Of a DNA stretch of 64,000 nt, positions 1,873-55,393 are shown in pieces (position 1 is the first letter of the stretch; the number at the start of each line of letters is the position of its first letter). The translations under genes were made by a program, and so were the position numbers. The DNA comes from Opitutaceae bacterium (GTDB lineage Bacteria > Verrucomicrobiota > Verrucomicrobiia > Opitutales > Opitutaceae). The notes beneath the pieces were generated by a model. That model was given only the letters and a program-made list of their open reading frames with translations, had not been told where the DNA came from and made no database searches. The stretch covers positions 163,055 through 227,054 of the forward strand of contig JANQKV010000001.1 in NCBI GenBank assembly GCA_028280945.1. The letters run 5' to 3'.

Positions 1873-2868
1873 TTATGCGATCGGTCGGCAGAGGGCACGC
1901 AGGTTTTCGGGCGGGGTGCCGGAGGGTATTTCGCAACCGGCATTGACCATAAACCTAGCGCCGGCGAGCTGGGCACAGGCCAGGGTTTTCGCCGCGATCT
2001 CCTCCGGTTGACCAAAGCGCAGGTCGGCCACCGGATTGTGATTGCCGGCCAGGACCACGTCGGGCCCGAAGACGTCGCGCGCTTCATTGAGATCCACCAT
2101 GTGATCACAGTCCAGGATGTCGATGGGCAGCTCCTTGAGCTTGGGCCAGAGGTGTTGGGTCTGACCGCAGATATGCAGGCGCACGAAGACCCCGGCGTTC
2201 TTGATCGCTTGCATCAGCCGCTGCTGCCGCGGCCAGATCAGTTCGTCGTAGATGCCGGGCGAAATCTGACTGCAGATGGCGTCGCCGATGCCAATCGTGT
2301 CGGCCCCGGCCTCGATTTGAGCGAGGGCAAAATTGATTGAGGTTTGGGTGCACAGGTCGAGCAGCTCGGCACTGAGCTCGGGCTCTTCCATGAGGTCCAT
2401 GAGGAACTCGCTAAGGTCACGCACGTCCCCTGCCAGGGCGGCCGGTCCCTCGACCCACCCCATCACGCTGTAGCGGTCAGCGGTGCGTTCGCGGTAGAGT
2501 CGAATGGCATCGAGCCGGTCGCGCATGCGCTCGCTGGTGTGTGGATCGGGTACGGCAACACCCGAAAAATCCTCCACGTCGGCGAGGGGCGGAGACAGGC
2601 ATTCCGGCACACCGTTTTCGTGATATTGAATGATGGCTCCGAATCCCGCGGTTTCGCGGTAGGGGTCGGATATGCAGCTGAGTTGGTCGAACCCAAAATC
2701 CTCGGCGCAGCGGATGTTGGCTTCGACAAGCGTACGATAGTCCGAGGCGAATGCCGCATAGTTGCTGCCGATGTATTCGGCGGCAAATTGCATCACGATT
2801 GGTATACGGGCGGGGTGATCGACCGGTTCTCCGGCGAGAGTGGCGCGATAACGTTGGGAGGGGGTCAT
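1873..2868 (-). CDS. uroporphyrinogen decarboxylase-family protein (MtaA/CmuA-like methyltransferase fold)
   Basis: ORF translation resembles UroD/MtaA family (GWVEGPAALAGDVRDLSEFLMDLMEEPE..., HICGQTQHLWPKLKELPIDILDCDHMVDL). Confidence 0.8.
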   Translation of the reverse strand: MTPSQRYRATLAGEPVDHPARIPIVMQFAAEYIGSNYAAFASDYRTLVEANIRCAEDFGFDQLSCISDPYRETAGFGAIIQYHENGVPECLSPPLADVEDFSGVAVPDPHTSERMRDRLDAIRLYRERTADRYSVMGWVEGPAALAGDVRDLSEFLMDLMEEPELSAELLDLCTQTSINFALAQIEAGADTIGIGDAICSQISPGIYDELIWPRQQRLMQAIKNAGVFVRLHICGQTQHLWPKLKELPIDILDCDHMVDLNEARDVFGPDVVLAGNHNPVADLRFGQPEEIAAKTLACAQLAGARFMVNAGCEIPSGTPPENLRALCRPIA

Positions 2869-3785
2869 GCGGACAGGGCTCTTAATTGGCGGACGGCGTC
2901 GTCGAGGTGCGATTCATGGTCGTCGTGGGCGATGATAACAACCCGGGCCTCGCGCGTCGGATCACAGGGTTTGATGATCGCAGTGCTTACGGTGCGCTGA
3001 ATCTCGCGCCAACCTTCGGCGGTTTGCACGTGTCCTTTGACGCGCAGTATTTCCGACGGCAGGGCTTCCAACCATGACCGCAGGGCACCGACCGAAGGGG
3101 TGTGACGGATTTTTACGGTTTTGGTGGTGAAGGGGTTCGCATCACACTCGTGCAGTGGAGCCGATGGCAGGGAATCGGTGGGCCGAAGCCCGTTGAGGTT
3201 AAAATCCAGCCGACAGTGCTCGGCCTCCATGACCTGGGTGCGCGGGTTGGCTTGTTGCACCAGGGAACGGGTCTCCTGGATCTGAGCGGGGGTGGCGAGG
3301 TCGGTCTGGTTGATGATGAGAACATCACACGCCTGCACCTGTGCCTGCACCGAGGTCAGGTTTTCGTGCAGTTGCGGGAAACGGGCGGGGGCGACGATGT
3401 TGACGATCTGCTGGATCTGAAACGATTCGCTCAACCCGTGTTCCTGCATCAGTTCGCCGATGGCGGAAGGATCGGCGATGCCACTGGTTTCGATCACCAC
3501 TTGGTCGACGGTTTTCGCCTCGTGCAGCGCAGTGACGTGCTCGCGCATGAGCCGAACGAAGTCACCGGCCTTGCATTCGCAGAACAGACTGCCGCCCACC
3601 ACGGAATGCACCGGCACATTGGTGAGCGACAAAGTCGTGCCGTCGACGCTTTGCCGTGCGAATTCGTTGACGAGAAAGAGCAGTTTTTTCTGCGGGTTGC
3701 GCTCGGCGAGGCGAAGCAGGAAAGTCGTTTTTCCGCTGCCCAAAAAACCGGTGACCAACGTCACGGGGATGCGCGCCTTGGCCAT
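2865..3785 (-). CDS. CobW/G3E family GTPase (COG0523-like)
   Basis: Walker A VTGFLGSGKTTFLLRLAER, ETSGIADPSAI motif; FCECK in place of the canonical CxCC. Confidence 0.88.
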   Translation of the reverse strand: MAKARIPVTLVTGFLGSGKTTFLLRLAERNPQKKLLFLVNEFARQSVDGTTLSLTNVPVHSVVGGSLFCECKAGDFVRLMREHVTALHEAKTVDQVVIETSGIADPSAIGELMQEHGLSESFQIQQIVNIVAPARFPQLHENLTSVQAQVQACDVLIINQTDLATPAQIQETRSLVQQANPRTQVMEAEHCRLDFNLNGLRPTDSLPSAPLHECDANPFTTKTVKIRHTPSVGALRSWLEALPSEILRVKGHVQTAEGWREIQRTVSTAIIKPCDPTREARVVIIAHDDHESHLDDAVRQLRALSA

Positions 3786-3793
3786 CAGTTGGA

Positions 3794-5230
3794 CTAGTTG
3801 TTTTTCGCGGCCGCGGCCTCTGCGAGGGTGGCCACCAATTTGCTTCGGTCCGGAATGATGGAGGCGAACTTCTCCTGGCCATCGACGCAGATACTGGGGA
3901 TGGCGGAAACGGAGAGCTTGGTCATGTAACCCAAACCATCACGTTCGGTGATTTTGTGCTCGCGGACGGTGGCGCGGCCGTCGAATGCGCGAGCGGCCTC
4001 CTGGGCGGACTTGACCATGTAGGCGCAGGGGGCGCATCCGGCGGAGTCCAGGGTGACAACGTCGATAATGACTTCCGATTGTTCGGCATAGGTCGGCACC
4101 GTGATATCGTCGAAGCTGTCAGTGGACTCCTTGCTCGGCAGTTGGCGGGCAACGTCAAGTTGGTAGGGATCGTGCACCAGGGTGGCCACGGCCTCCAGAT
4201 TGGCGGGCGGCACGGCGTAAGGCAGGTCGCACCCTGGAGCCAGAATAAAGCCGGGTTCAGTGCCGGCTTGATCAAGACAGCGCAGCACATCCCGCCGGGC
4301 ATCGTCGGCATCGCCCAGGAGCAGCACGACGGTGAGTTGCAGGTTGCCGCCGAAGGACTTGCCGCCGGCCCGAGCGATTCGGCCGAGTTCGGCGAGGTCC
4401 ACGTTTTCATCCACTGAAAGATTGTCGCAATTTGTGGCGGCCATGGCCTCGAGGTTGCGGGTGGCGTTTCCGCAGACGAAGAGGGAAGACAGTTTGCCGC
4501 GTTCCCGCACGTGGTCGAAGATCTTGTTGAGCGCCGGGGCCACGAACTGGGTGAAGTGGTTGGGCCCGATCTGGCTGACCATGGGATCGACCACGGCGAT
4601 AACATCGATGCCCGCCTCGATGTAGGCGTCCACCATTTGGCAGGCGATGTCGGCGCAATAATCGAGGAGGCGGGGAACATCCTCCTCCTCGTCGAACATG
4701 TCCATCAACACATCGTCTCCCCGCAGGTGAAGCGCGAGGGTGAGGGGGCCGGTAAGCAGTCCGTAGAGGGCCACGGATTCACCAAACTTCGCCTGGCAGC
4801 GTCTGACTGCATCGAGCACCAGGGGGAGTCGTCCGGCTTCGGCCGAGAACTTGGGCAGCCCGGAGAGATTGTAGTCTTCCCCCAGGGGATGAGAGGCCAC
4901 GGAGGGCGGGGTTTCCTTGGCCCAGACCAATTCGCAGCCGAGGATCTCCGCCTCCAACTGGAGGTCGAATACGACGGGCAAACCATCGGGCCGGTAGCGC
5001 TCGACGGCGGTGGTGAGCCCATCGACGATGGCATCGCTGCTTTGCAGGTAGGCCGTGGCGTCGTGGCCAACCAAAGCGCCGCCATGCACGCCGACAAAAG
5101 GCACCCAGGGGGTGCGGGAGACAGGTTGGCCGCGGAGGGCGGCGAGGAGTATTTCTTTGCCGGAATTCATCAGGGAGGGATCAGGAGTGGGGGGATTTAT
5201 GAAGAGATGGTCTTCGAGTGACACAGCCAC
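3794..5230 (-). CDS. UroD-family methyltransferase fused to C-terminal thioredoxin-like domain
   Basis: N-terminal UroD-like region (VFDLQLEAEILGCELVW..., VDPMVSQIGPNHF...FVCGNATRNLEAM) and C-terminal IIDVVTLDSAGCAPCAYMVKSAQEAAR...SAIPSICVDG. Confidence 0.85.
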   Translation of the reverse strand: MAVSLEDHLFINPPTPDPSLMNSGKEILLAALRGQPVSRTPWVPFVGVHGGALVGHDATAYLQSSDAIVDGLTTAVERYRPDGLPVVFDLQLEAEILGCELVWAKETPPSVASHPLGEDYNLSGLPKFSAEAGRLPLVLDAVRRCQAKFGESVALYGLLTGPLTLALHLRGDDVLMDMFDEEEDVPRLLDYCADIACQMVDAYIEAGIDVIAVVDPMVSQIGPNHFTQFVAPALNKIFDHVRERGKLSSLFVCGNATRNLEAMAATNCDNLSVDENVDLAELGRIARAGGKSFGGNLQLTVVLLLGDADDARRDVLRCLDQAGTEPGFILAPGCDLPYAVPPANLEAVATLVHDPYQLDVARQLPSKESTDSFDDITVPTYAEQSEVIIDVVTLDSAGCAPCAYMVKSAQEAARAFDGRATVREHKITERDGLGYMTKLSVSAIPSICVDGQEKFASIIPDRSKLVATLAEAAAAKNN

Positions 5231-5351
5231 GATAGCACTCTGGAAACTCCGCCACTGCGCGCGGTTTGTTTTGATTTGTTCGTTGATTGGTAAAGTCGCT
5301 ACGCGCCCAAAGTGCAGAAGTCGGCCCCCTTAAGACCCGCTCTTGGCACAT

Positions 5352-5380
5352 TTGTCACGTTACAGTCACCCGACTGTGAC
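5352..5380 (+). promoter_or_regulatory. putative PHO box (three heptamers at 11-bp period)
   Basis: TTGTCAC-GTTA-CAGTCAC-CCGA-CTGTGAC; resembles CTGTCAT-N4-CTGTCAT architecture. Confidence 0.55.
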
Positions 5381-5423
5381 AACTGACCGTCTTAGTAGCG
5401 GCCCGTGGGGAAATCCCACGGAT

Positions 5424-6578
5424 GTGAAAATCGCAATCGTCTCCGAAACCTTTCCGCCTGAAGTAAATGGAGTTGCGATGACCTTCGGGGTCATTGCCGG
5501 TGAGCTGGGCCGCCGAGGTCACGAAATCAAAGTCTACCGCCCAAACCGGGATGACCTGCCCGAGCCCGGATCGGAACCACACTATACCCAGGTCCCGATG
5601 CCGGGCATGAATATTCCAGGCTACCCCCTGTTGCGGTTGGGTTGGCCGGCTCGGGGGAAGCTCACTCGCCATTGGCGCGATGATCGGCCCGACTTGGTGC
5701 ACGTGGTGACGGAAGGGCCGCTGGGAGCCACCGGCGTGAGTGCGGCCCGCGAGCTGGGGATCCCGGTGACTTCGAGCTTTCACACCAATTTCCATGCCTA
5801 CACCAAGAACTACGGTTTCGCTCTGATGAACCGATTGGTCTTGGGATGGCTGCGCCGGGTGCACAACCGCACGCGTCGCACGTTTGCCCCCACGGACGAG
5901 CTCTGCGCCGAACTGACGGAGATGGGTTTTAACGACACGTCGCTCCTTTCACGCGGCATCGACATCGCGTGTTTTTCCCCCAGTCGACGAAGCGATGAGC
6001 TTCGAGCTGAGTGGGGAGTTCAGCCCGGCGAACGGGTGGTGCTGCATGTCGGGCGCATGGCTCCGGAAAAGAATTATGAGTTGCTGTTCAAGGTCTATGC
6101 GGCGATGCGCGAGGTGGACCCGCTGCTGAAATTTGTCCTGGCGGGCGACGGTCCGGTGAAGGACCAACTCATGGGTGAGCATCCCGAGTGCATTTTTGCC
6201 GGATTCTATTCGCGGGAGGAGATCGGACGCTACTATGCGTCGGCCGACCTCTACATCCACGCGAGTCTTACCGAGACGTTTGGCAATGTGCTGACTGAAG
6301 CGATGGCCAGTGGCCTGGCCGTGGCGGGCTTCGATTACGCGGCCGGACGACAGTTCATTCGCGATGGTGAAAACGGGTTGTTGGTGCCGTGCGATGACGA
6401 TGAGGCGTTGATCGAGGCCGGACGCCGCCTGGCCGGAAATCGTGACCTTTGCCTACAGCTCGGCCAAGCCGCGCGCGATGGTTTCGAAAATCAATCTTGG
6501 GAAAAAGTGATCACCAAATTTGAAAACGACCTGCTGCGTGAAGCGGGCAAACTCAACGAATCATGCGGCGCGTTTTGA
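5424..6578 (+). CDS. GT4-family glycosyltransferase (MgtA/Agt/SQD2-like)
   Basis: MKIAIVSETFPPEVNGVAMT..., HVVTEGPLGATG, SLTETFGNVLTEAMASGLAV; GTG start at 5424 chosen because the longer ORF overlaps the putative regulatory repeats. Confidence 0.88.
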   Translation: MKIAIVSETFPPEVNGVAMTFGVIAGELGRRGHEIKVYRPNRDDLPEPGSEPHYTQVPMPGMNIPGYPLLRLGWPARGKLTRHWRDDRPDLVHVVTEGPLGATGVSAARELGIPVTSSFHTNFHAYTKNYGFALMNRLVLGWLRRVHNRTRRTFAPTDELCAELTEMGFNDTSLLSRGIDIACFSPSRRSDELRAEWGVQPGERVVLHVGRMAPEKNYELLFKVYAAMREVDPLLKFVLAGDGPVKDQLMGEHPECIFAGFYSREEIGRYYASADLYIHASLTETFGNVLTEAMASGLAVAGFDYAAGRQFIRDGENGLLVPCDDDEALIEAGRRLAGNRDLCLQLGQAARDGFENQSWEKVITKFENDLLREAGKLNESCGAF

Positions 6579-7735
6579 TTCTCTCGGCCAGCTACGGGGA
6601 AGGTCACAATGCGGCCGCCCGGAGCCTGGTGACCGCATTTGATCAACTGCACGGCGAGGGCACGGCCGACCTGCAGGATCCTCTCGCTGAAACGGCTCCG
6701 CGGCGTGACCGGTTGGCGCGCTCGGCCTACTATTTTGCCATCAACCGTCTGCCGCGGGCTTGGAGCGCGTTTTACGCGTGGCTCGACCGCACCAAACCGC
6801 TGCCGCGGTATTTGGGCCTGCTCGAGCGGGAATCAGCGTGGCTGGAGCAACACGTCCGGGCCACCCGACCCCAGGCGGTGCTGTGCACTTATCCGATCTT
6901 TGCGTTCATCTTTCAACGCCTGGCGAAGGAGCGGGGAATCGACGTGCCACTTTACAACGTCGTGACCGACTCCATCAGCATCAACTCCATGTGGTGGCTA
7001 GCCCCCTGCGCGGGGTGGTTTTTGCCCAATGAAGACTCTGCCGAAGTCGTGCGCTCGGTGGGGACTTTGGCCGAGAAAGTCCACGTGAAGGGTTTTCCCG
7101 TGCCGCCACTCTTTGCCGACGCCAGCCAGCGACTGGAGCCTCCCAATCTCTCCCGGGGAGCAACTCCGCGGGTGCTTTACATCATCAATTCCGGGGCCAG
7201 CCACGCTTTGGAAACCGCAACGCGTTTGATTCGGGAAACGGGCTGGGAACTCACTTTTGCGGTCGGTCGAGATAAGAACCTGCGCAAGAAAATCGCCGGG
7301 CTCGCCCAAAATCGACCCGTGCCGGTTGAGGTGCTGGGTTGGACAGACCGGATTCCCGAGCTACTGATGACTCACCACGCCGTGATCAGCAAAGCCGGTG
7401 GCGCAACCACGCAGGAATCAATCGCCGCGCATTGCCCGATGATCGTGAATCAGGTCGTGCCCGGACAGGAGGAGGGCAACTACGAGTTGTTGCGGCGGCG
7501 TGACATTGGCGCACGAGCTGATTCACCGACTGAGATTCTCAACGCTCTACGCGGAGCATTCGCCCGCAACGCGCTGGTGTGGGAAGGCTGGCATGAACGC
7601 GTGCAACAGCTCGCCCGGCCGCGCGCGGCGCTCGACATTGCGGAGTTTGTGGCCGCCAATGGTTCCGGCTCGAACCCTGACACGGATTTCCCCCTTCAAC
7701 CCATCACCTCGAACTCCTCCCCGGCTCATGGATAA
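6563..7735 (+). CDS. MGDG synthase-like (GT28-type) glycosyltransferase
   Basis: RRVLILSASYGEGHNAAARSLVTAF, C-terminal VISKAGGATTQESIAAHCPMIVNQVVPGQEEGN. Confidence 0.85.
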   Translation: MRRVLILSASYGEGHNAAARSLVTAFDQLHGEGTADLQDPLAETAPRRDRLARSAYYFAINRLPRAWSAFYAWLDRTKPLPRYLGLLERESAWLEQHVRATRPQAVLCTYPIFAFIFQRLAKERGIDVPLYNVVTDSISINSMWWLAPCAGWFLPNEDSAEVVRSVGTLAEKVHVKGFPVPPLFADASQRLEPPNLSRGATPRVLYIINSGASHALETATRLIRETGWELTFAVGRDKNLRKKIAGLAQNRPVPVEVLGWTDRIPELLMTHHAVISKAGGATTQESIAAHCPMIVNQVVPGQEEGNYELLRRRDIGARADSPTEILNALRGAFARNALVWEGWHERVQQLARPRAALDIAEFVAANGSGSNPDTDFPLQPITSNSSPAHG

Positions 7736-8576
7736 GAAGAACCTGCAGGTGCGAACCGTCATCATCTCGGATGTGCATCTAGGCACACCCGATTGTAAGA
7801 TCGAAGAAGTGAACCACTTCCTGCGACGCGTGCGTTGCGAGAAGCTCATCCTCAACGGCGACATTATCGACGGCTGGCAGCTGCGCCGGGCCGGTCGATG
7901 GACAAAAGCCCACACCCGTTTCGTGCGCATTGTGCTCAAGAAGCTCGAAAAACGTGATACCGAAATCGTATATCTGCGGGGCAACCACGACGATGTGCTG
8001 GCCAATTTCATGCCGCTCGAATTCGAGAACCTCTCGGTCGTTGAGGATTACGTGCACGAAGGGGCCGATCGGCGCTATCTGGTGTTGCACGGCGACGTGT
8101 TCGATACCGTGACCAAGAACTTTGTGTTCCTCGCCCACTTGGGCGACTGGGGTTACCGGGCACTGCTCAAACTCAACCGCGTTTACAACCATTGGCGGGC
8201 TTGGCGTGGCAAGGAATACTGGTCGCTCAGCAAGGCCATCAAGGCGCGGGTGAAAGAGGCCGTGAATCACGTGTCCAATTTCGAGGATCACATCGCTCAG
8301 CTTGCCAAGCAGCGTCACTGCAACGGTGTCATGTGCGGTCACATTCACACCCCGGCCGACAAGATGCTGGGTGACGTGCATTACCTTAACTCCGGCGACT
8401 GGGTCGAGTCTCTCACGGCGATCGTGGAGCATCTGGACGGACGTTTTGAACTCATCGAATTTGGCGACTTCACGAAGCGTTTCCCCATGCCCGACCAGCA
8501 GGAGCCGGAGGAATTGGTGCCCTTGCTGGAGATCAACACCAAGGAGCCCGAGTCGCCCAATGCATTGGCCGGGTGA
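7728..8576 (+). CDS. metallophosphoesterase, UDP-2,3-diacylglucosamine diphosphatase family (PlcP/LpxH-like)
   Basis: VRTVIISDVHLGTPDCK...LNGDIIDGWQLRR...LRGNHDD...VLHGDVFD...GHIHTPADK; ATG at 7728 overlaps preceding stop. Confidence 0.87.
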   Translation: MDKKNLQVRTVIISDVHLGTPDCKIEEVNHFLRRVRCEKLILNGDIIDGWQLRRAGRWTKAHTRFVRIVLKKLEKRDTEIVYLRGNHDDVLANFMPLEFENLSVVEDYVHEGADRRYLVLHGDVFDTVTKNFVFLAHLGDWGYRALLKLNRVYNHWRAWRGKEYWSLSKAIKARVKEAVNHVSNFEDHIAQLAKQRHCNGVMCGHIHTPADKMLGDVHYLNSGDWVESLTAIVEHLDGRFELIEFGDFTKRFPMPDQQEPEELVPLLEINTKEPESPNALAG

Positions 8577-8613: not shown

Positions 8614-8664
8614 GTTCCACCAACCTGCAATGTTCGTATTACGAACATTGCAGGTTGGTGGAAC
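8614..8664. repeat. 51-nt perfect palindrome (25-bp arms), dispersed repeat copy 1
   Basis: GTTCCACCAACCTGCAATGTTCGTA-T-TACGAACATTGCAGGTTGGTGGAAC. Confidence 0.95.
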
Positions 8665-8745: not shown

Positions 8746-8770
8746 TGAATGTTCGTATTACGAACATTCA
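8746..8770. repeat. 25-nt perfect palindrome, dispersed repeat copy 2
   Basis: TGAATGTTCGTA-T-TACGAACATTCA. Confidence 0.95.
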
Positions 8771-8857: not shown

Positions 8858-10771
8858 TTACGCCTGGGCCAGGCGGGTTGCACTGAGCCACTTGCTCCGG
8901 GGCACGTAGGCCAGGGCAATGATGGCCAGATTCGCGGCCACAAAGGCAACGAGGGCGTTAAACGCAGCGTCCATGAACCCATAGCTGTGCAGGCCGACAC
9001 CCAGCATGTTGGTCCCGAACCAGCTCCAACTCGTCACGATGTTGCCAAAAATCGCCATGGCCATGATGCCGCGCGCGCGCGCCAAACCACCCCAGCGGGC
9101 GTGCAGGATGATCGCGTTCCACATCACGATGAGCAGCGCCCCGTTTTCCTTGGGGTCCCAGCCCCAAAAGCGGCCCCAGGACTGGTCGGCCCAGATCCCA
9201 CCCAGGATGGTGCCCACCAGGCTGAAGAGGGTCGCAAAACATACGATGCCGTAGACCATCCGTTCCATGATCTTGGACGTGTCGCGGTCCAGAGACCGGG
9301 TCAAAACGCCACGGAAAACGTAGATGATGGCCAGGAACCCCGCCAGGAACGTGGCCGAATACCCGATGGTGATCACGATGACGTGGGTCGCCAACCAGAA
9401 GTTGGAATCGAGCACCGCGCGCATCATCTCCAGGGTGTCACCCGAAAGCGAAAGCTGATGTGCCACAATCATGGTGGCGAAACCGGTCAAGCCGCCCGCC
9501 GTCGCCCCGATGGCATTGGGATAAACACGTTCCAGGAACAGGCAGAGAGCGACCGAGCCCCAGCCGACGAACAAGGCGGAAGAGTAGAGGTTGGTCACCG
9601 GCGGGCGGCCTTCCAGCCACATGCGGGTGATGATCCCGGCAGTCGTAGCGATCCACGCCAGCCACAACACGTAGTAAGCGGATTTTTGCAGTGCTTCGGG
9701 CCAGACCAGCCACGAGGCGATCGCGACCAGAAAAACAAAAACGTAAAGCAGCAGGCTGAGGTAAAAGGGTTCGGTCTGGTTGAATGCCCGCTCTGTATTC
9801 GCCTTCTTCATCTGGTCACCGAACTTGGTGTCCAGTTGGGCGGTATAGAGACCTACGATGGTGTTGAACGTTTCGGGAGTCTGGTCGCGCCACGAGCGGG
9901 CCATTCCCGCGTAGGCCAGAGCGTAGGGATTGACCAATCCGCTTTGGAAGGAATTGAGCAGCGCGCGACCGGTTTTCTGCCAGTTGTGGTCGGACGTATC
10001 CTCACCCAGCGGGGGCAGGGGGATCAGGTAGGCCATCTGGTCCATCGCCAGAAACATTTGGCCGACATCAATCATGCGGCTGGCCAGTTCCTCGTCGTGT
10101 TCCTCGCCATTGGAGCGGGCCCGCACGGCGGCAATGCCCTCGGCAAAGTTATCCTGCAGGGACTGCAGGGTGGTCAGAAAGTCCTCATCTCCCGGAAAAA
10201 CCGCGCTGTGTTTGAGCTGCTGGTAGAGGACCAACTTGCTGCGCAGCTTTACGATGGCGCGCTGAAAGCTGTCGCGTTGGGGCGCTTCCAGCGAAGCGGC
10301 CAGTTCCCCCTGACGATCGATCTCGGCCAGGAATGGCGCCAGTTGGTCGAACGAGAACCGGCTGTAATGGGAAGGCGCAAAACCCAGCACCGCCATGAAC
10401 CGAACAAACGCACTCTCGTAAACGCGCTTACGGGTCTCCTCATCCTGGCCAATCATCTGCAGCACATCCAGGTTATCGATCCGGAAAGTGCGGTAGGTGT
10501 CGGCCACTTCGGGGCGGAAGAGCACGTCGAGCAACCACTGGTTCGGGGTGAGCTTGCCGCCATCGGCCAGGTAGACGGTCTGGCGGGCCTGCAGGCTCAA
10601 CAGGGTGGTGCGCCCCACTGTATCCAATGGCTTGATACGCCCGTCCGCCAGGACGGGCAGCCGACCGAATCCATCGAGATCAAACTCGGTGTCCGGGCCG
10701 GGGGCAAACGCCGTGCGCGCCACCAGCAACAGCGCCGCGATCACCGCGAGAATGGGAATGAACCGTTTCAT
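8858..10771 (-). CDS. ccsA: cytochrome c biogenesis protein CcsA (System II)
   Basis: Multi-TM protein with WGWDPKENGALLIVMWNAIILHARWGG (CcsA/CcmF tryptophan-rich motif); start MKRFIPILAV chosen. Confidence 0.9.
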   Translation of the reverse strand: MKRFIPILAVIAALLLVARTAFAPGPDTEFDLDGFGRLPVLADGRIKPLDTVGRTTLLSLQARQTVYLADGGKLTPNQWLLDVLFRPEVADTYRTFRIDNLDVLQMIGQDEETRKRVYESAFVRFMAVLGFAPSHYSRFSFDQLAPFLAEIDRQGELAASLEAPQRDSFQRAIVKLRSKLVLYQQLKHSAVFPGDEDFLTTLQSLQDNFAEGIAAVRARSNGEEHDEELASRMIDVGQMFLAMDQMAYLIPLPPLGEDTSDHNWQKTGRALLNSFQSGLVNPYALAYAGMARSWRDQTPETFNTIVGLYTAQLDTKFGDQMKKANTERAFNQTEPFYLSLLLYVFVFLVAIASWLVWPEALQKSAYYVLWLAWIATTAGIITRMWLEGRPPVTNLYSSALFVGWGSVALCLFLERVYPNAIGATAGGLTGFATMIVAHQLSLSGDTLEMMRAVLDSNFWLATHVIVITIGYSATFLAGFLAIIYVFRGVLTRSLDRDTSKIMERMVYGIVCFATLFSLVGTILGGIWADQSWGRFWGWDPKENGALLIVMWNAIILHARWGGLARARGIMAMAIFGNIVTSWSWFGTNMLGVGLHSYGFMDAAFNALVAFVAANLAIIALAYVPRSKWLSATRLAQA

Positions 10772-11952
10772 GTCGCGGATGCCGCCCGGCGGCGCTGGGA
10801 AAATTTGTAGAGGTGCATGGTGAACTGCCACGTCAGACCGAGGGTCATCAGGAGGCACGCGATGTAAGGAAGGGCCCGGCCGGGATTGCGGACGACCTGC
10901 AGCACGCTGAACCCATTGGCGCTGTCCATCTGGTATTGGTAAAAGGTGTAGCCCTGGTAGCGCAGCGGATGGTTCATGTAGATGAGCGACTCCCGGTCTT
11001 CGCTGCCGTCGAGGGCGGTGACGCGAACCAGTGAGGAAAAGTTTTTCGGAATGTTGGAACCCGCGTAGACGTCGTGGCTCAGTTCGATCAGGTTGACGGC
11101 GAAGTCCTTGTATTCCCGCTCAAACCGGAAGGCGATTTCCCAGCTTTGGCCGGCATACTGAAAAGGTTGTGGCGCAATCAGCATGGGTGAGACCAACCAT
11201 GTGCCGAGCGACCCCTCCGTCCCCACGAGCTCAACCAGGGCGGTGGGCAGATTGCGTTCCTGGTCGTTGTAGGAAAGCGGCAGTGGTGAAATCCCCAGGC
11301 GTGGGCCGATGCCCATGGTCGAGAAATTCGGCGCGAGCGCTGATTGATCGATTCCCTCAGGCAATGAGCTGAGCATGCCGATGTTGGCGTTGGGATAGTA
11401 GGCCCGGGGAATAATCTGGAAGGGCAGCTTCCCGTGTTGCACCGGCTGCTGGTCGGCGATGAACGACTCGGGAATCGCCACCACGTCATCGTGGTCGGGA
11501 TCGCTTTTGTTGATCAAGACGACCTCGTTGCGTCGGAAGCTCTCGGAATAGCTGCGGGTTTCCCCTTCCTCCAGGCGCAACGAAAAGTCCTCCTGCAGCA
11601 GGCCGGTGATCAACTCTCCCACCAACAGTACGATGAGACCAAAGTGGGTGAGGTGAATGCCCGCCTTTTTCCACTCCAGCTTGAAGCGCGTGAGGTGGGC
11701 CGCCAACAGGTTGATCATCAGGAACCCTCCGATCAAATAGCCTCCCGGCATCACCGGAACGGGAATTTCCGTGCCGGGAAAATTCGCGAGGACAAAGAAG
11801 CTTTTGAAGAACTTTTCCTGTACGCCGTAAATGCCCAGGTTCACCTGGGCGAGGGTCGCGACGAACACGAGCACCATGGAAAAGGCCAGCAACGCGACGG
11901 TCAGTTTCAGCGAACTGAAGAAGACAACAAAGGACTTGGTTACTTCGTTCAC
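10768..11952 (-). CDS. cytochrome c biogenesis protein ResB-like
   Basis: MNEVTKSFVVFFSSLKLTVALLAFSMVLVFVATLAQVNLGIY..., LTRFKLEWKKAGIHLTHFGLIVLLVGE; overlaps ccsA. Confidence 0.85.
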   Translation of the reverse strand: MNEVTKSFVVFFSSLKLTVALLAFSMVLVFVATLAQVNLGIYGVQEKFFKSFFVLANFPGTEIPVPVMPGGYLIGGFLMINLLAAHLTRFKLEWKKAGIHLTHFGLIVLLVGELITGLLQEDFSLRLEEGETRSYSESFRRNEVVLINKSDPDHDDVVAIPESFIADQQPVQHGKLPFQIIPRAYYPNANIGMLSSLPEGIDQSALAPNFSTMGIGPRLGISPLPLSYNDQERNLPTALVELVGTEGSLGTWLVSPMLIAPQPFQYAGQSWEIAFRFEREYKDFAVNLIELSHDVYAGSNIPKNFSSLVRVTALDGSEDRESLIYMNHPLRYQGYTFYQYQMDSANGFSVLQVVRNPGRALPYIACLLMTLGLTWQFTMHLYKFSQRRRAASAT

Positions 11953-55370: not shown

Positions 55371-55393
55371 CCATGTTCGTAATACGAACATGG
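55371..55393. repeat. 23-nt perfect palindrome, dispersed repeat copy 3
   Basis: CCATGTTCGTA-A-TACGAACATGG. Confidence 0.95.

Follow-up and report, generated by a model that had tools for sequence, protein, structure and literature searches.

A Candidate Phosphate-Starvation Lipid-Remodelling Operon of the PlcP-Agt Kind in an Opitutaceae Bacterium

Pho-controlled membrane lipid remodelling by PlcP and Agt is established in proteobacteria (PMC4796936, PMC8528852, PMC9239053), with examples in Pseudomonas aeruginosa (PA3219/PA3218/PA0842), SAR11 HTCC7211 and Methylosinus (PMC8528852, PMC4796936, PMC9239053). The products of P. aeruginosa Agt1 and Agt2 are monoglucosyl- and glucuronosyl-diacylglycerol (PMC8528852), and some glycosyltransferases adjoining plcP are known to assemble lipids with several sugars (PMC4796936). 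Among Verrucomicrobiota, single-cell genomes have yielded a plcP homologue (PMC4796936), and the methanotrophs of this phylum lack plcP (PMC9239053). The literature library searched, which is incomplete, contains no paper that brings together plcP, diacylglycerol kinase, glycosyltransferase and operon, and none on a family 28 glycosyltransferase (GT28) in a verrucomicrobial plcP operon. PlcP-Agt remodelling itself is already known; what is new is the addition of GT28 and of the kinase, together with the verrucomicrobial promoter.

The locus was found in a window, the whole 64,000-nucleotide stretch of DNA analysed, from an Opitutaceae bacterium whose assembly has 5.44 Mb and is 96% complete. 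It contains three genes transcribed in the same direction (+ strand), which encode a family 4 glycosyltransferase (GT4, 5424-6578), a GT28 (6563-7735) and a metallophosphoesterase (7728-8576). An earlier note on this DNA had claimed tandem overlaps between these genes, and both are exact by gene coordinates: the ATG of GT28 at 6563 precedes the GT4 stop at 6578 (16 nt), and the ATG of the phosphoesterase at 7728 precedes the GT28 stop at 7735 (8 nt). The gene types that it had proposed, GT4, MGDG-synthase-like glycosyltransferase and COG2908-type metallophosphoesterase, also agree with the Pfam domains. The three genes are set apart as a closed unit, because their upstream neighbour (3794-5230, URO-D/MtaA-like) is divergent and the downstream one (8858-10858) is convergent. 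The upstream gene, on the - strand, encodes a MtaA/CmuA-like methyltransferase with a thioredoxin-like C-terminal part, and adjoins a gene for a CobW-type GTPase (2865-3785, -).

The GT4 gene likely starts at the GTG at 5424 (MKIAIVSETFPPEVNGVA) rather than at the TTG at 5343 given in the list of open reading frames, and therefore a set of heptamers at 5352-5380 sits 5' of the gene. Between them and the start, a perfect 7-bp stem, CCGTGGG-GAAAT-CCCACGG (5403-5421, +), lies immediately 5' of the GTG. The same stem is found in the sister species only, for which reason no riboregulator is claimed, and an Rfam search of the window gave no matches. On the other side of the operon, the palindrome TGTTCGTATTACGAACA is found at 8631-8647 and 8750-8766, and again at 55374-55390 of the window. 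At 8614-8664 it is part of a longer, near-perfect palindrome of 51 bp, just 3' of the phosphoesterase gene. The genome shows 20 exact copies, some closely paired, against 0 for the reversed control, and these could be a REP-like family.

The PHO-box-like repeats claimed in the earlier note are present upstream of GT4 (5352-5380, +) and consist of three heptamers, TTGTCAC (5352-5358), CAGTCAC (5363-5369) and CTGTGAC (5374-5380), with N4 spacers and an 11-bp period, ending 43 bp before the GT4 start. With up to three mismatches, the three-heptamer consensus shows two sites in the whole genome and 0 in the reversed control; the second site, just past the 3' end of the neighbouring gene, was judged to be a chance match. 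A looser heptamer pattern gave nine genome matches against one in the control, and because its other sites are near genes without a clear phosphate link, no wider regulon is claimed. A weight matrix trained only on the sequences 5' of the relatives' GT4 genes, with the window excluded, the sister species included and pst unseen, recovered the three-heptamer motif of 11-bp period, mostly 50-110 bp before the GT4 starts. With this matrix, the site at 5352-5380 scores 19.9, the best of about 128,000 window positions, and none of 242,636 background positions of the same genome reaches 17. Sites of 17.6-27.3 bits were found 5' of the pst operon in most relatives read, so that the motif is common to the GT4-plcP and pst promoters. 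GT4 promoters of separately fetched Opitutae loci, from genomes some of which may overlap the training set, score 17.9-26.8 with the exception of the sister species; the 99% background level for a 250-bp stretch is 10.9. Two results count against: the box is degenerate in this sister species, the closest relative (G007, score 11.9), and the site of 19.0 bits about 65 bp upstream of the first gene of the own pst operon has an inverted orientation. This own site is at L109 5141-5169 (C58), and the first genes of the operon (C58; L089 33-8806) appear to be one for a TonB-receptor-like protein and one for a large predicted surface protein, followed by pstSCAB-phoU. The genome also encodes a PhoB-like regulator, whose gene precedes one for a likely sensor kinase; this regulator scores best within its family, yet stays under the curated cut-off for PhoB. 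The box is a putative PhoB site, and its sequence would be consistent with PhoB binding and induction at low phosphate.

According to Pfam, the phosphoesterase shows a Metallophos domain (PF00149, 3.6e-12). It was aligned with the Sinorhizobium meliloti homologue, with proteins encoded next to glycosyltransferase genes in Pseudomonas, Roseomonas and Sphingomonas, and with E. coli LpxH. The seven metal ligands and catalytic His listed for LpxH (PMC5016852) are all kept (D15, H17, D45, N86, H87, H121, H205 and H207). Sequence identity is 22% to E. coli LpxH and 38-44% to PlcP of PlcP-Agt systems, and the LpxH models match far below threshold: TIGR01854 gives 19.4 bits (cut-off 190) and PRK05340 gives 42 (cut-off 134). 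At His87, in the motif GNHD, E. coli LpxH has an Arg, a substitution that a study of LpxH structure gives as exclusive to LpxH (PMC5016852). This Arg is found in the six gammaproteobacterial LpxH compared, and since two Bacteroidota proteins annotated as LpxH have His, the position is supportive and not decisive.

The earlier note had asked for the placement of this protein among LpxH and PlcP clades and for a search of the genome for a separate LpxH; the outcome that it named as a refutation, a grouping with LpxH in a genome with no other LpxH, did not arise. In a maximum-likelihood tree of 47 sequences, LpxH and PlcP-type proteins fall without exception on the two sides of a split supported at 100/99, and the protein lies on the PlcP side, in a supported Opitutae set whose nearest other group is Bacteroidota. 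The S. meliloti homologue, also on this side, is encoded next to an AHL synthase and a LuxR regulator, and on account of these neighbours was taken as PlcP; we take this sinR/sinI neighbourhood to be that of SMc00171 (PlcP). The genome encodes LpxI and has no TIGR01854 match, so lipid A does not need the gene at 7728-8576. A PDB search with the single sequence gave nothing, and one with the family profile, which includes the E. coli LpxH row, matched LpxH structures strongly and no others; we attribute this to the fold and to that row, not to function. These sequence comparisons support a PlcP-type enzyme, a candidate intracellular phospholipase C, with 86% identity to the phosphoesterase on a contig of 'Opitutaceae bacterium isolate M30B9'. 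To our knowledge, this PlcP subclade has no characterised member from Verrucomicrobiota or Bacteroidota, which counts against the assignment. Parabacteroides distasonis has genes of both types: the PlcP-type gene is immediately followed by a glycosyltransferase gene unrelated to GT4 of the window (L114 3977-5898), and a separate LpxH-type gene of the same strain adjoins a pstS-like gene. Bacteroidota may have their own version of the plcP-glycosyltransferase arrangement.

GT4 shows the domains PF13439 and PF00534 and is 29-35% identical to the glycosyltransferases adjoining plcP in Pseudomonas, Sphingomonas and Roseomonas. When the Sphingomonas Agt-like protein was used as query against the source genome, GT4 was the best match with 123 bits, and the next had 43 bits. 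Its best NCBIfam model is N-acetylglucosaminyl-phosphatidylglycerol synthase, below threshold (134 bits, cut-off 480), and the second is monoglucosyl-diacylglycerol synthase. GT4 is thus Agt-like, and as a candidate Agt it may use diacylglycerol with UDP-glucose or UDP-glucuronate. GT28 is of the MGDG-synthase/UgtP type and shows the MGDG_synth domain (PF06925) above cut-off with 1.2e-11. Furthermore, it matches the NCBIfam diglucosyl-diacylglycerol synthase with 4.7e-37, yet below the curated cut-off, and plant MGD1 in PDB with 1.5e-19, with which it shares a conserved GQE-GN segment. Relatives of GT28 are found in 139 of the 188 genomes of the class. No plcP was nearby in five GT28 loci read outside the family, and a sixth, within the family, has the order GT4-PlcP-GT28; GT28 was probably recruited into the plcP operon within Opitutaceae. 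Glycosylation of diacylglycerol by GT4 and then GT28 is no more than plausible, since both could use diacylglycerol in parallel.

The operon architecture was read in 40 loci of relatives: 10 show GT4-GT28-DAGK-PlcP (DAGK, diacylglycerol kinase), six GT4-DAGK-PlcP, five GT4-GT28-PlcP as in the window, three GT4-PlcP-GT28 and seven others. In the remaining nine, plcP has no GT4, GT28 or DAGK neighbours, which counts against a remodelling operon. The extra gene before plcP in many relatives encodes a YegS-type lipid kinase (PF00781), and it is this diacylglycerol kinase that ties the operon to diacylglycerol. The operon of the window does not contain the kinase; the genome has a single copy, at a distance of about 117 kb on this contig, which shares 45% identity with the kinase from a relative's operon. 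This gene is at C30:51130-51981 (L217 1486-2391, -), and no box was found near it in the stretch read. Two Akkermansiaceae/Verrucomicrobiaceae loci show phoU directly 3' of plcP. The distance between the cluster and pstC is about 3.5 kb in two genomes (G013 and G049), and that to pst is about 9-20 kb in six (G002, G010, G022, G023, G024 and G001). Among the single-contig genomes of about 6 Mb, cluster and pst are within about 20 kb in G001, G002 and G010 and not in G011 and G020; by informal judgement, such closeness in three of them would rarely arise by chance.

Most probably, the operon serves membrane remodelling under phosphate starvation and is of the PlcP-Agt kind. This reading is supported by the placement of the phosphoesterase on the PlcP side, LpxI without LpxH, the likeness of GT4 to Agt and the matches of GT28 to MGDG and, below threshold, diglucosyl-diacylglycerol synthases, while the roles of the products are predicted from sequence. 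The link to diacylglycerol and phosphate comes from the kinase in the operons of relatives, the motif shared with pst, the proximity of pst and phoU, and the PhoB-like regulator. At low phosphate, phosphorylated PhoB would bind the box at 5352-5380 and start transcription of the three genes as one unit. The PlcP-type enzyme (7728-8576) would remove the head group of phospholipids, and besides diacylglycerol this would yield a phospho-alcohol whose phosphate could be recovered; GT4 (5424-6578) would put the first sugar on diacylglycerol, and GT28 (6563-7735) would add a second sugar or make a second glycolipid in parallel. A more specific proposal, which we put forward tentatively and to which we give a little under an even chance, is that Opitutaceae have a distinct Pho-regulated cassette in which PlcP would release diacylglycerol, GT4 and then GT28 would make mono- and diglycosyl lipids, and the kinase of many relatives would return the surplus to phospholipids.

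Other explanations were weighed together with remodelling. The phosphoesterase could be LpxH or a functional equivalent, with the operon serving synthesis of lipid A for the outer membrane; it has the COG2908-type fold, and relatives on plasmid records are annotated as 'UDP-2,3-diacylglucosamine diphosphatase'. The low identity to E. coli LpxH, the separate and strongly supported side of the tree, the two LpxH models below threshold, the presence of LpxI with no TIGR01854 match, and His in place of the gammaproteobacterial Arg make this extremely improbable, and we reject it. The remodelling reading suggests instead that proteins so annotated in bacteria with LpxI are often PlcP. It is also unlikely that the glycosyltransferases decorate another lipid, such as phosphatidylglycerol as in GlcN-PG synthesis, or a glycan anchor, with the phosphoesterase recycling a by-product. 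The top sub-threshold model of GT4 points to phosphatidylglycerol, whereas its second-best model, its likeness to the plcP-linked Agt-like proteins, the match of GT28 to MGDG synthases and the kinase within the operons of relatives all point to diacylglycerol.

A constitutive glycolipid operon, in which the phosphate link is incidental and the box is bound by another regulator of the OmpR/PhoB family, would agree with the degenerate box of the sister species and with the looser genome matches that show no clear phosphate link. A member of the PhoB family other than PhoB might recognise a tandem repeat of this kind, and full-length PhoB-like matches number at least 12 in the genome. However, a motif trained without pst marks the pst promoters of most relatives and that of the own pst operon, and the clusters lie close to pst and phoU, so we regard a constitutive operon as quite improbable.

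If the remodelling reading holds, Pho-controlled PlcP-Agt remodelling, which has been studied for the most part in proteobacteria, would reach into Verrucomicrobiota, with concrete genes, a promoter motif and products that can be tested. Furthermore, the diacylglycerol kinase of relatives raises a testable question of diacylglycerol balance; if the proposal holds, the kinase would be a 'balancing valve' within a lipid-swap cassette, which is undescribed in the literature searched.

In relation to the PlcP-Agt pathway, the operon is alike in its PlcP-type phosphoesterase, its Agt-like GT4, its transcript-like unit and its Pho-box-like site. It differs in its reversed order, with the glycosyltransferase first and plcP last, in the extra GT28, in the Verrucomicrobiota-specific heptamers and in the kinase of relatives, and PlcP is 38-44% and GT4 only 29-35% identical. 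Among the marine plcP clusters, types 3 and 5 also combine plcP with further glycosyltransferases, which make di- and triglycosyl-diacylglycerols (PMC4796936); their plcP is upstream of the glycosyltransferases, while here it is last. The second glycosyltransferase belongs here to the GT28/MGDG-synthase family, an assignment made for this operon only. MGDG synthase and UgtP share with GT28 the PF06925 domain, and plant MGD1 also the GQE-GN segment; GT28, with a predicted activity, is below the diglucosyl-diacylglycerol cut-offs and sits in a phosphate-linked operon. Finally, LpxH shares with the phosphoesterase the fold family and the metal-ligand motifs, whereas the phosphoesterase is in the other clade, with 22% identity and without the gammaproteobacterial Arg, in a genome that uses LpxI.
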